Below the pieces are notes generated by a model that had not been told where the DNA came from, did not search any database, and saw nothing but the letters and a program-made list of their open reading frames with translations. This document shows positions 15,095 through 34,371 of a stretch of 64,000 bases of DNA, piece by piece. The DNA comes from Prevotella sp. (GTDB taxonomy: Bacteria; Bacteroidota; Bacteroidia; Bacteroidales; Bacteroidaceae). The translations under genes and the position numbers were made by a program. The stretch lies in contig JAFYZT010000036.1 in NCBI GenBank assembly GCA_017548605.1, forward strand, positions 62,001 through 126,000, given 5' to 3'. Each line of letters starts with the position of its first letter. Positions within the stretch are counted from its first letter, which is position 1.

Positions 15095-15184
15095 TCCTTT
15101 TACTATTTAACCTTTTTACCTTTCATCAGCCCTTTTACCCTTTCATTAGCCTTTTTACTTTTTTACCCTTTTACCCTTACCCGA
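15095..15184. repeat. GGGTAA/GTAAAAGG array beginning in the last codon of hsp20
   Basis: On the minus strand the gene ends in GGG-TAA and continues as GGGTAAAA, GGGTAAAA, AAGTAAAA, AGG units with some drift to about 15095. The stop codon is therefore part of the first unit. Confidence 0.85.
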
Positions 15185-15593
15185 TATTTATCTGGCGGGC
15201 TACTTTCACTTCCTCCTTCACAATCTTCGGCAGGTCGATGGTCAGCACACCGTCAGCCACCTTGGCGCCGATTTTCTCCTTGTCCACGTCGTCGGGCAGA
15301 ATCAGTGTCTGCTCATATTTCGTGTAGCTGAACTCGCGGCGCAGATAATGGGCCTTCTTCTCCTCCTCAGTCTGCTCGTGACGGCTCTCCATCTTGATGG
15401 TCAAGTCGCCTTCGGCATTGATGTTCACGTCGAAATCCTCTTTCGTCATACCCGGGGCAGCCACTTCAACTTGGTATTTGTCTTCCATCTCCAGCACATT
15501 GATGGCGGGTGCCGTGGCGTTAGCCTTAGGCAGGTTTACTGCGTTAATGAAATCGTTGAACACTTCCGGTAACCATGAATTCTTGTACATCAT
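15177..15593 (-). CDS. Small heat-shock protein Hsp20/alpha-crystallin
   Basis: 138 residues. It is an ATP-independent holdase chaperone. The alpha-crystallin domain spans about 35-130 (YQVEVAAPGMTKEDFDVNINAEGDLTIKM through VADGVLTIDLPK). The C-terminal extension is short and the classical IxI motif is represented by QINIG at the end. The leader has AAAAGGAGA a few bases upstream of the ATG, an unusually strong ribosome-binding site for this phylum. A long palindrome lies 107 bases upstream. Confidence 0.94.
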   Translation of the reverse strand: MMYKNSWLPEVFNDFINAVNLPKANATAPAINVLEMEDKYQVEVAAPGMTKEDFDVNINAEGDLTIKMESRHEQTEEEKKAHYLRREFSYTKYEQTLILPDDVDKEKIGAKVADGVLTIDLPKIVKEEVKVARQINIG

Positions 15594-15699
15594 AATCGTA
15601 TCTCCTTTTTAGTTTATGGGTTGTTGTTAATGTTTTCAAACTCTCGCGCCCTTTGAAAGGCGTTCACCCATCATTATGCAACCTGCGTGCCAATGAAGA

Positions 15700-30006: not shown

Positions 30007-31086
30007 ATGGAACAAAGAAAAATAAGGGTGGCCATCACCCAAGGCGATACCAACGGAATAGGTTATGAAACAATCTTCAAATGCTTTGCCGAACCGGCAA
30101 GCCTCGAACTGTGTACTCCCATCGTTTACGGTTCACCGAAGGTGGCAGCCTATCACCGCAAGGCATTGAACATGCAGGCCAATTTCAGTATCATCACTTC
30201 GGCCAATGCGGCACAGGACGACAAACTCAATGTGCTGACAGCCTTCGATGGCGACGTGAAGGTGGATATGGGAACACGAACACCGGAGTCGGGCGCGGCG
30301 GCTCGGAAGGCTCTCGACAGGGCCATCGCCGACTTCGCCACGGGGGCATTCGATGCATTGGTAACCATGCCCATGGATTTAGCCGACCTCGACGGGGCTT
30401 CATCACAGGCGGACTATATCATTAGGGCCTTGGGACTGACCGACGACTGTATGCAGGTGTTTACCTGCGGACAACTGCGACTGGCTGTGGCTACACCATC
30501 ATGTCCGGTGGGAGCAGCCGCCACGCTCATCAGCAAAGAAGGGGTGGAGGGAAAGGCTAAGACGCTGTTCAATTGCTTGAAACGCGACTTCCGAGTGAAC
30601 AACCCCCGTCTGGCGGTGTTGGCCTATAACCCGCAGCCTTCGACAGAGGAAAATGAAGCTATCGTGCCTGCCGTGGAACAACTCAAGACGGACAAGGTGT
30701 GGACATACGGACCATTCAGTGCCGACGACTTTTTCAGCCAGTGCCAGCATGTGCATTTCGATGCCATATTGGCCATGTACCACGAACAGGCCATGATTCC
30801 TTTCAAGATGCTCGCCAACGAGGGGGCCGGCGTGTTCACGACGGGACTGGCTCAGCCATTGGTGGAGCCGCTGTTCATGGGTAATACGGAACAAGGAACT
30901 GTCGACGAGCTGCCTCTGCGCATGGCCATCTATATGGCTGTCGATGCTGCACGTAACCGTGCCAACTATGACGAACCGCTGGCCAACCCGCTGAAAAAGC
31001 TGTATCACGAGAAACGCGACGAGAGCGAGAAAGTGCGTTTCGCCATCCCCAAGAAGCATGAGGATAAACCGGAGGAGAAAAACTAA
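30007..31086 (+). CDS. PdxA-like protein, probably catalytically altered
   Basis: 359 residues, alignable end to end with 4-hydroxythreonine-4-phosphate dehydrogenase (PdxA): opening QGDTNGIGYETI, then PIVYGSPKVAAYHR, CPVGAAATLISKEGV, AMYHEQAMIPFK and the late GVFTTGLAQPLVEP. Expected active-site residues are not there. The GHT of the substrate loop is replaced by SSQ at 132-134, the metal His of NPHAG by Gln210, and the His of DHGTA by Glu295. Only the His259 metal ligand is kept. It sits in the expected Bacteroidota neighbourhood. It may be a repurposed or inactive paralogue; the classical symbol is withheld for that reason. Confidence 0.8.
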   Translation: MEQRKIRVAITQGDTNGIGYETIFKCFAEPASLELCTPIVYGSPKVAAYHRKALNMQANFSIITSANAAQDDKLNVLTAFDGDVKVDMGTRTPESGAAARKALDRAIADFATGAFDALVTMPMDLADLDGASSQADYIIRALGLTDDCMQVFTCGQLRLAVATPSCPVGAAATLISKEGVEGKAKTLFNCLKRDFRVNNPRLAVLAYNPQPSTEENEAIVPAVEQLKTDKVWTYGPFSADDFFSQCQHVHFDAILAMYHEQAMIPFKMLANEGAGVFTTGLAQPLVEPLFMGNTEQGTVDELPLRMAIYMAVDAARNRANYDEPLANPLKKLYHEKRDESEKVRFAIPKKHEDKPEEKN

Positions 31087-31135
31087 AAACCTCTAAAATA
31101 TCTGCCAAAATTGCACATATCCGAAAAAATATGTG

Positions 31136-31143
31136 TAATTTTG
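31136..31143 (+). promoter_or_regulatory. Promoter -7 element of the regulator-LptE gene
   Basis: TAATTTTG, 8 bases before the ATG at 31152, implying a very short leader. An ATTG at 31110-31113 is a possible -33 box at a slightly long spacing. Confidence 0.65.
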
Positions 31144-31151
31144 TCACCCCA

Positions 31152-32870
31152 ATGGAGAATAGTAAACTACAACAGGTAAAAAACCGATACCAGATAGTGG
31201 GCAATAGCGAGGCGCTGAACCATGCGCTCGATATTGCCTTGCAGGTGGCATCTACCAATCTGTCAGTGCTCATCGTGGGCGAGAGTGGGGTGGGAAAGGA
31301 AATCATCCCGCGCATCATCCACGACAATTCCACACGGCGAAAGGAGAAATTCTTCGCCGTTAACTGTGGCTCCATACCTGAAGGTACTATCGACAGCGAA
31401 CTCTTCGGACACGAGAGAGGGTCGTTCACCGGAGCCATCGGCGAGAGCGAGGGCTATTTCGGTGTGGCGAACAAAGGTACCATCTTCCTCGATGAGGTGG
31501 GTGAACTGCCACTTTCCACGCAGACACGACTGCTCCGCGTGCTCGAGTCGGGCGAATATATCCGCGTGGGTGGACAGGAAATCAGAAAGACCGACGTGCG
31601 CATCGTGGCGGCTACCAATGTTAACATGCGCAAGGCCATCAGCGAGGGACGGTTCCGCGAAGACCTCTTCTATCGACTGAACACCATACCCATCGCCATG
31701 CCGGCATTACGCGAGAGGGGAACTGACATACTGCTGCTCTTCCGGCTCTTCGCCCTGCAGATGCAGGAACAATACCATATCCCCAAGATAACGCTCACCA
31801 AGGAGGCAGAGGCGTTGATGCTCAAATATAAGTGGCCGGGAAACGTACGACAGCTGAAGAATATCACCGAACAGATGTCGGTGCTCAGCCGCGAAAGGGT
31901 TATCACGGCCGATATCCTTCGCACTTTTATTCCCGACGACCCCGAGACGACGGAACTGGCCACTGTCGCCAAGACAGGACCTCATTCCTATGAGAACGAA
32001 CGGGAGATGCTGTTGCAGGTGCTCTATGAACTGCGTACCAACGTGGGCGACCTCAGGAGGGAACTAAACGGACTGCGGCACCAGATTGATGATGCGAAAA
32101 ACCTGACTACTGCAGCGCAAAACCTTCAGACCAACCTGCCGGCAACATTCGACGCAGCGGATGGAAACGATGACAAGAACACTAAGAAACCCGTTGTTGA
32201 AGATGCTGAGGCGGAGGAGATATCTGAGCCGGAAAGCCTGAACCTCAATGATATAGGACGGCAGATGCTGGAAAAAGCACTTGAACGCAACGGGGGAAAC
32301 CGTAAGAAGGCGGCACGTGAACTGGGAATCTCCGACCGCACGCTCTATAGGCGGCTGCGACAGTTCGGACTGACCATGCTCATCGCACTCTTCACATTGT
32401 CCTCTTTTTCATCGTGCAAGGTGTCGTACAGCTTCAGCGGGGCAAGTATCGACTACTCCAAGACCAAGACCATACAGATTGCCGACTTCCCGATACGCTC
32501 GTCGTATGTGTGGGGACCCATGCAGGGCATCTTCAACAATGCACTGCGCGAACTCTTCTCATCACGCACTCACCTTGAAGAGGTACGGCGCAATGGCGAC
32601 CTCGTGCTCGAAGGGGAGATAACGCAATACCAACAACGAAATAAGGGTATCTCAAGCGAGGGATATTCAGAGCAGGTAGAACTGTCGATGACGGTAAATG
32701 TCAGGTTCACCAACAACAAGAACCACGACGAGGACTTCGAACAGCAGTTCACAGCTACGAATACCTACCCCAGCACACAGTCGCTCAACTCCGTACAGGA
32801 GGAACTGGTGACACAGATGGTGGAAGACATCACCCAACAGATTTACAATGCCACAGTGGCCAACTGGTAA
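31152..32870 (+). CDS. Sigma-54-type AAA+ regulator fused in frame to LptE-like lipoprotein
   Basis: 572 residues from the ATG at 31152. Residues 20-260 are a sigma-54-interaction AAA+ domain: Walker A GESGVGKE (43-50), GSFTGA loop (90-95, in place of GAFTGA), and Walker B GTIFLDEVGELP. An arginine/sensor region REDLFYRLNTIPIAMP follows. No N-terminal receiver domain is present. A coiled linker (280-370) leads to a Fis-type helix-turn-helix (NRKKAARELGISDRTLYRRLRQFG, ending at 406). Without a stop it runs into MLIALFTLSSFSSCKVSYSF, a lipoprotein signal with Cys422, then an LptE-like domain (SGASIDYSKTKTIQIADFPIRS to the end). LptE normally plugs LptD for LPS export. An internal ATG at 32376 could yield free LptE. 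Confidence 0.85.
   Translation: MENSKLQQVKNRYQIVGNSEALNHALDIALQVASTNLSVLIVGESGVGKEIIPRIIHDNSTRRKEKFFAVNCGSIPEGTIDSELFGHERGSFTGAIGESEGYFGVANKGTIFLDEVGELPLSTQTRLLRVLESGEYIRVGGQEIRKTDVRIVAATNVNMRKAISEGRFREDLFYRLNTIPIAMPALRERGTDILLLFRLFALQMQEQYHIPKITLTKEAEALMLKYKWPGNVRQLKNITEQMSVLSRERVITADILRTFIPDDPETTELATVAKTGPHSYENEREMLLQVLYELRTNVGDLRRELNGLRHQIDDAKNLTTAAQNLQTNLPATFDAADGNDDKNTKKPVVEDAEAEEISEPESLNLNDIGRQMLEKALERNGGNRKKAARELGISDRTLYRRLRQFGLTMLIALFTLSSFSSCKVSYSFSGASIDYSKTKTIQIADFPIRSSYVWGPMQGIFNNALRELFSSRTHLEEVRRNGDLVLEGEITQYQQRNKGISSEGYSEQVELSMTVNVRFTNNKNHDEDFEQQFTATNTYPSTQSLNSVQEELVTQMVEDITQQIYNATVANW
32376..32870 (+). CDS. lptE: LptE-like lipoprotein, possible internal-start product
   Basis: 164 residues if translation begins at the in-frame ATG at 32376. 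The peptide starts with a hydrophobic stretch and lipobox-like FSSC, then SYSFSGASIDYSKTKTIQI, as in Bacteroidota LptE family proteins that assemble with LptD in the outer membrane. An out-of-frame TGA at 32371-32373 ends two bases before this ATG. This is the layout expected if a separate upstream stop was lost by a one- or two-base change. Whether a separate protein is made cannot be told from sequence. Confidence 0.55.
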   Translation: MLIALFTLSSFSSCKVSYSFSGASIDYSKTKTIQIADFPIRSSYVWGPMQGIFNNALRELFSSRTHLEEVRRNGDLVLEGEITQYQQRNKGISSEGYSEQVELSMTVNVRFTNNKNHDEDFEQQFTATNTYPSTQSLNSVQEELVTQMVEDITQQIYNATVANW

Positions 32871-32876
32871 ACTGAC

Positions 32877-33614
32877 ATGACCGACATCCAGCATTATATC
32901 GACCATCCCGAACAACTCGACAAGGAAACGCTGTTCACGCTGCGTTCCCTCGTGGCGCAATATCCGTATTACCAACCGGCACGCATACTGTTGCTGAAGA
33001 ACCTGTTCCTGATGCACGACCCTTCCTTCGACGAGGAACTGCGAAGGGCGGCCATATTCATCACCGACAGGAATGTGCTATTCGAAATGGTGGAAGCGGC
33101 ACATTATTTGCTGAAGAAGGAAACCACGGAGAAGAAACCGGCCGACAAGGAAGATGCCGCCAGCAGGACGATGACGCTCATCGACAATTTCCTCGACTCC
33201 ATGCCGGAAAAAGAAGAGGAAACACCGAAAAAACGGAAACCGACACCTGCCGATGCTGCCATTGATTATGTGGCTTACCTCCTTGAAACGGAGACGGAAG
33301 AGGAAGCACAAGAGCAGACACCGGCGATGAAGGGACAGACGCTCATCGACGATTTCATCAAAAACAAGGATGGACGCCGTATTCAACTCAAGGAAAATCC
33401 AGAATACACACCGCAACTCGACGATGACACCAAACAGGGTGGGGAAGGGTTCTTCACCGAGACTTTGGCCAAAATTTACGTCAAACAAGGGCGATATTCT
33501 AAGGCTTTGGAAATTATTAAGCGTTTAAATTTGAATTATCCAAAAAAAAGTGCTTACTTTGCAGACCAAATTCGCTTCTTGGAACGATTGATAATAAACA
33601 ACAATAACAAATAA
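32877..33614 (+). CDS. TPR-like protein of unknown function
   Basis: 245 residues, no signal peptide. An N-terminal helical region (DKETLFTLRSLVAQYPYYQPARILLLKNLF) and a C-terminal helical repeat (FFTETLAKIYVKQGRYSKALEIIKRLNLNYPKKSAYFADQIRFLERLI) resemble tetratricopeptide repeats. They are joined by a long charged, glutamate- and lysine-rich linker (about 80-160). It starts 6 bases after the LptE region and ends 6 bases before secG, so it is in the same operon. A scaffold role is inferred. Confidence 0.8.
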   Translation: MTDIQHYIDHPEQLDKETLFTLRSLVAQYPYYQPARILLLKNLFLMHDPSFDEELRRAAIFITDRNVLFEMVEAAHYLLKKETTEKKPADKEDAASRTMTLIDNFLDSMPEKEEETPKKRKPTPADAAIDYVAYLLETETEEEAQEQTPAMKGQTLIDDFIKNKDGRRIQLKENPEYTPQLDDDTKQGGEGFFTETLAKIYVKQGRYSKALEIIKRLNLNYPKKSAYFADQIRFLERLIINNNNK

Positions 33615-33620
33615 AGTAAA

Positions 33621-34064
33621 ATGTACACACTTTTCGTAATTCTTATCGTACTGGCAGCCATACTGATGATTTTCATCGTGCTGATCCAGGAAAGCAAGGG
33701 TGGAGGCTTGTCTTCCAACTTCTCTTCGGCCAACCAGATCGTGGGTGTCCGTAAAACAACCGACTTCATCGAAAAGGCCACTTGGGGCCTCGCCATTGCC
33801 ATGGTGGTGCTCAGCGTGCTCTGCGCATCCGTGGCTCCCACAGCAACGGCTTCCAAGAGTGCCGTGCAGGGACAGGTAGAGAATCCGTTGACCAATCCTA
33901 CCACACAGCAAAACTTCGGTGCTTCACAGCAGGCCGCTCCTGCAGCCCCCGCCGCTGAAGGTGCAGCCCCCGCTGCTGCCCCTGCTGCTGAAGGTGCAGC
34001 TTCCGCACCCGCTGCTCCTGCAGCACCTGCAGCCCCCGCTACTCCTTCTGCTCCGCAGCAATAG
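33621..34064 (+). CDS. secG: Preprotein translocase subunit SecG
   Basis: 147 residues. SecG assists SecYEG-mediated export. The two TM helices (about 1-22 and 55-77) flank the conserved IQESKGGGLSSNFSSANQIVGVRKTTDFIEKATW. The C-terminal 45 residues are an alanine/proline-rich low-complexity tail with repeated AAPAAEGAAP units, longer than in most SecG proteins and probably unstructured. It is the last gene before tRNA-His. Confidence 0.93.
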   Translation: MYTLFVILIVLAAILMIFIVLIQESKGGGLSSNFSSANQIVGVRKTTDFIEKATWGLAIAMVVLSVLCASVAPTATASKSAVQGQVENPLTNPTTQQNFGASQQAAPAAPAAEGAAPAAAPAAEGAASAPAAPAAPAAPATPSAPQQ

Positions 34065-34153: not shown

Positions 34154-34228
34154 GGTGCCCGTAGTTCAGTTGGTTAGAGCGTCAGATTGTGGTTCTGAAT
34201 GTCGTGGGTTCGAGTCCCACCGGGCACC
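34154..34228 (+). tRNA. tRNA-His (anticodon GTG)
   Basis: The acceptor arm GTGCCCG (34155-34161) pairs with CGGGCAC (34221-34227). The extra G at 34154 faces C at 34228, the G-1:C73 pair diagnostic of tRNA-His. The anticodon loop TTGTGGT gives GTG. The T arm GTGGG-TTCGAGT-CCCAC is intact. CCA is not encoded. Confidence 0.97.
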
Positions 34229-34236
34229 CTCGAAAA

Positions 34237-34371
34237 GAGACATCGCCGCTAGGCAATGTCTCTTTTTGTGAGAAGTCTGAACAAACGACATCGCCGCTAG
34301 GCAATGTCTCTTTTTGTGAGAAGTCCGAACAAACGACATCGCCGCTAGGCAATGTCTCTTTTTGTGAGAAG
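34237..34371 (+). terminator. Three tandem 48-bp terminator units after tRNA-His
   Basis: The hairpin GACATCGCC-GCTA-GGCAATGTC followed by TCTTTTTG occurs three times, with unit starts at 34239, 34287 and 34335 (period exactly 48). The copies are nearly identical, with single-base differences in the AAGTCYGAACAAAC spacers. Confidence 0.9.

Follow-up and report, generated by a model that had tools for sequence, protein, structure and literature searches.

The locus examined here raises the question of whether one open reading frame of a Prevotella sp. genuinely joins a cytoplasmic transcriptional activator to an outer-membrane lipoprotein and, if it does, what becomes of the product. The frame lies near the middle of the 64,000-nucleotide stretch of DNA that was analysed (the window). 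A sigma-54 activator and LptE are joined there in one true, conserved frame: a complete activator is followed by an LptE domain without a stop, as the first-pass annotation had claimed, and its description of the product as topologically odd, a cytoplasmic regulator attached to an outer-membrane lipoprotein, was appropriate. The frame is open from 31131 to 32870, which corresponds to 579 residues, or 572 when counted from the ATG at 31152. We consider the latter the likelier start because the ATG at 31131 abuts the promoter-like TAATTTTG, which we take to be the −7 promoter motif of Bacteroidota. The leader is accordingly very short (8 nt from the end of TAATTTTG to the ATG). This had been remarked upon at the outset as a feature of the locus; it is present, but it is not peculiar to the strain, as a motif of the same type is retained close to the start in all eight upstream regions compared, that of the window included.

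Pfam assigned Sigma54_activat to residues 22–188 (216 bits) and the AAA lid to residues 194–272 of the 579-residue frame, and the LptE domain to residues 446–574 (74 bits, cut-off 23). A receiver domain was not found in the Pfam scan of the fused ORF, in line with the earlier description. The fused ORF is the sole LptE match of the window's genome, which is 92% complete. The coordinates of the fused ORF, its neighbours and a second locus discussed below are listed in the Table. Further downstream, a tRNA-His occupies positions 34155–34229 and is directly followed by a 48-bp tandem repeat (34239–34371; 2.8 copies, 98% match).

Table. Positions of the features discussed in the text (window numbering).
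Feature	Position	Strand	Remarks
hsp20 gene	15177..15593	−	83 nt downstream of TGGCACGCAGGTTGCA
Perfect −24/−12 sigma-54 promoter match TGGCACGCAGGTTGCA	15677..15692	−	only 0-mismatch match in the window
pdxA	30007..31086	+	upstream neighbour
TAATTTTG, promoter-like −7 motif	31136..31143	+	8 nt ahead of ATG 31152
Fused ORF, sigma-54 activator and LptE	31152..32870	+	572 aa; open frame, no stop between the parts
AAA+ sigma-54 interaction domain and lid	31194..31946	+	residues 22–272 of the 579-aa frame
GSFTGA loop	31419..31436	+	sigma-54 contact
Fis-type HTH_8	32250..32366	+	residues 374–412, last helix ending RRLRQF; Pfam, 54 bits
Hydrophobic core GLTMLIALFTLSSFSS and lipobox Cys	32367..32417	+	Cys is residue 429
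Out-of-frame TGA	32371..32373	+	
In-frame ATG	32376..32378	+	candidate internal start
Mature LptE	32418..32867	+	after the lipobox Cys; Pfam match 32466–32852
TPR-like protein	32877..33614	+	below Pfam cut-offs; start 6 nt past the LptE stop
secG	33621..34064	+	Sec translocon subunit

Fusion of the two genes is widespread in the genus. In a set of 100 genomes, made up of the window's and those of 99 relatives, one full-length match without a stop was obtained from six congeners in addition to the window's genome. A match was present in 377 of 398 genomes of the genus, and in 62 of them, the window's included, it was a single full-length match; in two of these 62 (L075 and L085) one stop lies between the two parts. 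Reading of 97 congeneric loci revealed 60 in-frame fusions, including that of the window, and 37 pairs of separate genes, so that the stop is missing in many congeners; the case in which all relatives carry two genes, raised by the first-pass annotation, is not what we observed. The fused loci were taken from the top of score lists, and 60 of 398 is therefore a lower bound and not a frequency. In a second set made up of named genomes, which overlaps the first, 62 of 80 loci were fused (one of them, L181, scored by eye); Xylanibacter brevis ATCC 19188 belongs to the fused ones, as does Prevotella communis E15-14, whose genome is complete. In Segatella baroniae, the activator and LptE are separate.

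These data bear directly on the possibility that the open frame reflects an assembly error or a recent small indel in the window's strain, the latter having been proposed from the out-of-frame TGA and the in-frame ATG, both of which lie at the positions first reported. We found nothing in favour of either. At least 60 congeneric genomes are fused, down to 65% identity, some of them consisting of one or two contigs (G156, G385 and G305), and the P. communis genome is complete. We therefore rejected this explanation, whose probability we regard as negligible.

Outside the genus, none of the 55 loci read was fused (some genomes occur twice among them), consistent with the initial expectation that the two genes are adjacent and unfused elsewhere. 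Where the genes are separate, the activator stops shortly past the helix-turn-helix (HTH; ..YGLDK and then the stop, or similar), and lptE has a start codon and a basic n-region of its own, often in another frame and overlapping the end of the activator gene. Separate activator and lptE genes are probably the ancestral state of Bacteroidales. In the comparison of the window with three close relatives, dN was well below dS for both the AAA+ part and mature LptE. On a tree of regulator plus LptE, from which the apparently frameshifted L092 was excluded, the fused state requires eight changes, seven of them forced by starred branches, and on a regulator-only tree eight changes, four of them forced; both are quick gene trees without bootstrap, in which gain, loss and exchange are indistinguishable. 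A single fused clade was rejected on the regulator plus LptE tree (AU p 5.8e-7), and with it a single origin of the fusion on that gene tree. One large clade is fused in 46 of its 49 members; the clade of the window (L001, L031–L033) and smaller fused groups are placed apart from it.

The most prominent feature of the fused proteins is the junction. In 59 of 60 sequences, the hydrophobic core begins directly after the HTH (RRLKQYGL or like), the exception being L082, in which DKT comes first. Between the end of the HTH and the lipobox Cys there are 12 to 22 residues, which contain no Lys or Arg in 59 of the 60 fused sequences (L074, L079 and L080 counted among the fused). In contrast, the 30 residues that lead up to the Cys contain one to seven Lys or Arg in all 57 separate genes, the L092 row of this set being unreliable. 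The residue preceding the lipobox Cys is Ser, Ala or Gly in all 60 fused proteins. The lipoprotein signal of LptE has thus kept its core and Cys in 60 of 60 cases and lost its own n-region, in place of which the last HTH helix apparently supplies the positive charge. That helix is presumably the recognition helix, as in other members of this HTH class. In a sequence comparison, the end of the HTH coincides with the end of the chain in the NtrC-family structures 4l5e and 4l4u; the fusion therefore adds a membrane segment to the recognition helix without a linker. LptE has a single match in 59 of the 60 fused genomes, and LptE function must therefore come from the fused chain. The remaining genome (G175) has a second, weak partial match, a 28.8-bit LptE-like ORF at G175:C293:4132-4443.

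An arrangement with two products, in which ribosomes also start inside the ORF, free LptE is made and the fusion is a by-product, had been suggested as well. Two candidates come into question, the ATG at 32376, which exists in the window, and a Met 34 codons before the end of the HTH. The latter, the one well-conserved in-frame ATG farther upstream, occurs in 54 of 60 fused sequences, and a precursor begun there would have an n-region that is basic and includes part of the HTH. The former codon is not conserved, being replaced by TTG, GTG and TTC in L031, L032 and L033, respectively, and an internal start at this position is consequently disfavoured. More generally, Met is absent between the HTH and the lipobox Cys in 22 of 60 fused sequences, initiation within the core would yield signal peptides lacking Lys and Arg in 59 of 60, and in five of 60 the stretch that begins 30 codons ahead of the HTH end and runs up to the Cys contains no in-frame ATG, GTG or TTG. 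As to the Met at −34, it is also found in 27 of 37 separate genes, and four of 60 fused sequences are devoid of ATG, GTG and TTG in the last 34 HTH codons.

Messenger RNA folding points in the same direction. Over 50 nt, the fused junctions gave −10.5 to −11.6 kcal/mol and internal controls −8.6 to −10.2 kcal/mol, compared with −4.7 to −5.5 kcal/mol for the separate genes; taken together, the fused junction and the Met at −34 (−9.7 to −11.6 kcal/mol) resemble internal coding sequence and differ from the weakly folded start regions. The LptE ATG of separate genes (35 loci) has an A-content of 0.46 and a dG of −3.8, and the regulator's own start has values of 0.29 and −5.9. The A-content of 0.26–0.30 at fused junctions versus 0.35–0.42 at separate ones is a weak measure, the internal controls spanning 0.25–0.40. 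Internal starts within the fused ORF are thus disfavoured by these sequence comparisons, and we consider a two-product arrangement unlikely.

Besides the junction, the state of the activator half was considered, as it could be vestigial and serve as a mere untranslocated leader for LptE. Such a reading would fit a fusion that arose or reverted repeatedly, it would spare the cell a membrane-tied activator, which seems awkward, and some conserved positions have drifted in the fused forms (E57D in six, E177G/S in seven and N244S in six of 60). Against it, the main catalytic residues are retained: none of the 60 fused proteins deviates at the Walker A Lys, the Walker B Asp-Glu, R176, R182 or R240. 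In addition, the dN/dS of the AAA part is about 0.02–0.07 between the window and its close fused relatives L031–L033, and its pairwise identity is 84.3% among fused and 85.7% among separate forms. The GSFTGA loop, noted originally in place of GAFTGA, is present, but its interpretation as a peculiarity of the strain was rejected: Ser is a family trait, seen in 58 of 60 fused and 33 of 37 separate proteins and in 13 of 20 homologues from other families. At residue 99 of the 579-residue frame, Phe is changed to Tyr (GSYTGA) in 27 of 60 fused versus 4 of 37 separate proteins, perhaps altering the sigma-54 contact.

The partner of the activator is likewise retained. We detected rpoN in 23 of the 24 genomes scanned (in the window's genome on contig C1 of G000), the exception being G222, which is 81% complete, and in 14 of the 15 fused genomes among those scanned, which also speaks against a vestigial activator. 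With an AAA+ domain, an HTH_8 domain and RpoN encoded in the same genome, the fused protein is, by its predicted domains, a bacterial enhancer-binding protein. In the window's genome it is the one Sigma54_activat match over 200 bits, the next reaching 32 bits, although a further activator could be missed in a genome of 92% completeness. Exactly one strong match (>200 bits) was found in 16 of 24 genomes, 10 of which are fused; put differently, 10 of the 15 fused genomes scanned, the window's included, have a single such match.

Candidate target promoters were identified as sequence-pattern matches (−24/−12) and read hit by hit. The strict pattern yielded 18 sites in the window's genome versus 4 for the reversed control, 8 versus 2 in G182 and 7 versus 1 in G156; in G403 it was not enriched genome-wide (11 versus 9). 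Of the 18 sites in the window's genome 16 were read. Seven of them are located 23–118 nt before genes for DnaK, a DnaJ-type protein, a Clp ATPase, thioredoxin (trxA), a DUF3737 protein, an NYN/LOTUS protein and Hsp20; one precedes an unnamed ORF, and the rest either fall within or close to coding sequence or lack an obvious gene. The hsp20 gene is that of the window (Table), and it is a probable target of the fused activator. A repeat-like 16-mer accounts for six of the 18 sites; one of these copies was placed by eye 69 nt ahead of a dus-like gene. This 16-mer, TGGCATATCTCTTGCT, occurs four times in the window's genome (G000:C3, C31, C40 and C41) and as a one-letter variant on C1 and C40, six copies in all, resembling a dispersed repeat.

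A targeted search for TGGCAHRN4TTGCW within 150 nt upstream of two chaperone genes, with Y widened to H after TGGCAA had been seen at grpE, gave matches before grpE at 21 of 30 loci (fused 13/15, separate 5/8, other families 3/7) and before htpG at 13 of 27 loci (fused 8/14, separate 4/7, other families 1/6), compared with 0 of 57 for each of the reversed and complemented patterns. In the window's own genome, grpE is preceded by a −24/−12 promoter, and htpG has no such site. Sigma-54 promoters of chaperone genes were also seen in L254, L258, L267, L268, L332 and relatives. A second, shorter GrpE-like ORF (65–69 bits) is present in four genomes of the window's own clade, namely G000 (G000:C20:230735-231124), G403, G182 and G222. 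A dyad and k-mer search for an activator-binding motif upstream of the sigma-54 sites produced nothing convincing or conserved.

Sigma-54 promoters require an activator; in genomes with a single one, the chaperone genes are therefore likely activated by the fused protein, as judged from promoter patterns and gene content. The grpE promoter is found in 9 of the 10 genomes that have the fusion as their only strong activator. Together with its occurrence in 13 of the 15 fused genomes, this is difficult to reconcile with a vestigial activator half, which we hold to be very improbable. None of the 15 genomes scanned for HrcA gave a match. For Prevotella, the promoter evidence speaks for sigma-54 as a heat-shock sigma factor, and sigma-54 may have this role in Bacteroidales.

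What, then, is made from the fused gene? From the computed architecture and promoters we infer cleavage and a coupling to export, and we favour, with somewhat better than even confidence, a polyprotein that is cut at the LptE lipobox, so that LptE is exported and the heat-shock activator is left close to the membrane, from which it is probably released. One gene would yield one precursor whose N-terminal ~410 residues represent an intact sigma-54 activator folding in the cytoplasm. The internal signal would insert cotranslationally in an N-in/C-out orientation with the HTH helix as the positive n-region, the lipobox Cys would be lipidated by Lgt, and the cut ahead of it would be made by LspA (signal peptidase II). 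Mature LptE would proceed to the outer membrane, and the remnant of the signal peptide would stay on the activator as a membrane tail at its C-terminus; an RseP-type site-2 protease may remove this tail. The activator would then serve RpoN at the promoters of chaperone genes, a putative heat-shock regulon. The window's genome contains one LspA ORF and one M50 (RseP-type) ORF.

The same order of parts, a cytoplasmic DNA-binding domain, one hydrophobic helix and a periplasmic domain, would also be expected of a one-component regulator of the ToxR/CadC kind, in which the uncut signal peptide is the only transmembrane helix and LptE is a periplasmic sensor held at the inner membrane. However, the lipobox Cys with Ser, Ala or Gly at −1 in 60 of 60 proteins argues for cleavage, and a linker between the HTH and the membrane segment is missing in 59 of 60. 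Moreover, LptE works with LptD in the outer membrane, and 59 of 60 genomes have no LptE match other than that in the fused chain. An uncut regulator is accordingly rather improbable.

Returning to the cleaved polyprotein, the lack of a linker between the recognition helix and the membrane means that the inserted, uncut form probably cannot bind DNA normally; the output of the activator should therefore depend on the state of export and processing. The sequence features thus suggest that activator output is coupled to export, with either direction of coupling conceivable. One tentative version, to which we assign clearly less than an even chance, is an export-coupled heat-shock switch, in which the sole strong sigma-54 activator, controlling the chaperones, is the front half of the LptE precursor. 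Each LptE passing through Sec, Lgt and LspA would carry or release one activator. While export works, insertion would keep the recognition helix of the activator at the membrane, and the activator would subsequently be released or destroyed by site-2 proteolysis; when export fails, uninserted chains would remain cytosolic and turn on dnaK, grpE, htpG and clp.

The architecture is of general interest because a cytoplasmic DNA-binding activator and an outer-membrane lipoprotein used in LPS transport form one chain that is common to many Prevotella. It departs from two rules, namely that regulators and parts of the envelope are separate products, and, with a DNA-reading helix doubling as the n-region of a signal peptide, that secretory signals are N-terminal. 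The fusion would offer a simple means of tying chaperone expression to envelope biogenesis, and it raises the testable idea of a gene switch tied to protein export. If true, such a switch would correspond in bacteria to a sensor of import failure, and a single genus would have acquired or lost it several times.

A close known arrangement is that of the separate activator and lptE genes of Bacteroidales, which encode the same two proteins in the same order and differ in that the activator ends near the HTH and that the start and the basic n-region of LptE are its own. Regulators such as ToxR and CadC consist of an N-terminal DNA-binding part, one hydrophobic helix and a C-terminal periplasmic domain, with a linker between the DNA-binding domain and the transmembrane helix, and we know of no lipobox in regulators of this type; the fusion differs from them by its AAA+/sigma-54 class, the missing linker and LptE as the C-terminal domain. 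FbcH of Bradyrhizobium is a cytochrome b/c1 polyprotein that is split at an internal signal peptide by signal peptidase I. It shares with the fusion the separation of a bacterial polyprotein at such a peptide, and contains no regulator. ATFS-1 of C. elegans is a sensor of mitochondrial import failure, and resembles the proposed switch in being a transcription factor that controls chaperones and whose fate is set by the transport of its own chain; this is an analogy only, without homology to the fusion.

Several literature searches brought up nothing relevant, and no paper on FbcH was found. Sigma-54 has been proposed as a controller of the bacterial exterior, with a general link to genes for lipopolysaccharide and lipoproteins (PMC3162934); the available part of that paper describes no gene fusion, and 'bacteroid' and 'prevotella' are absent from its main text. 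In E. coli, RseP clears remnant signal peptides and so provides the second cut proposed for the fusion, and the accessible sections of that report describe no substrate with a folded domain on the remnant (PMC10470546). IutY of Pseudomonas putida, a fusion of an ECF sigma factor with its anti-sigma domain, is cut by Prc and RseP (PMC5411451). Like the fusion, it unites a transcription factor of the cytosol with a periplasmic domain in a single chain, from which the factor is freed by proteolysis. Its periplasmic part is an anti-sigma domain, whereas that of the fusion is an outer-membrane lipoprotein with a job of its own, and the junction of the fusion, unlike that of IutY, is a lipoprotein signal peptide. 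As an example of a fused factor that proteolysis sets free, IutY comes closest to the present case (PMC5411451).
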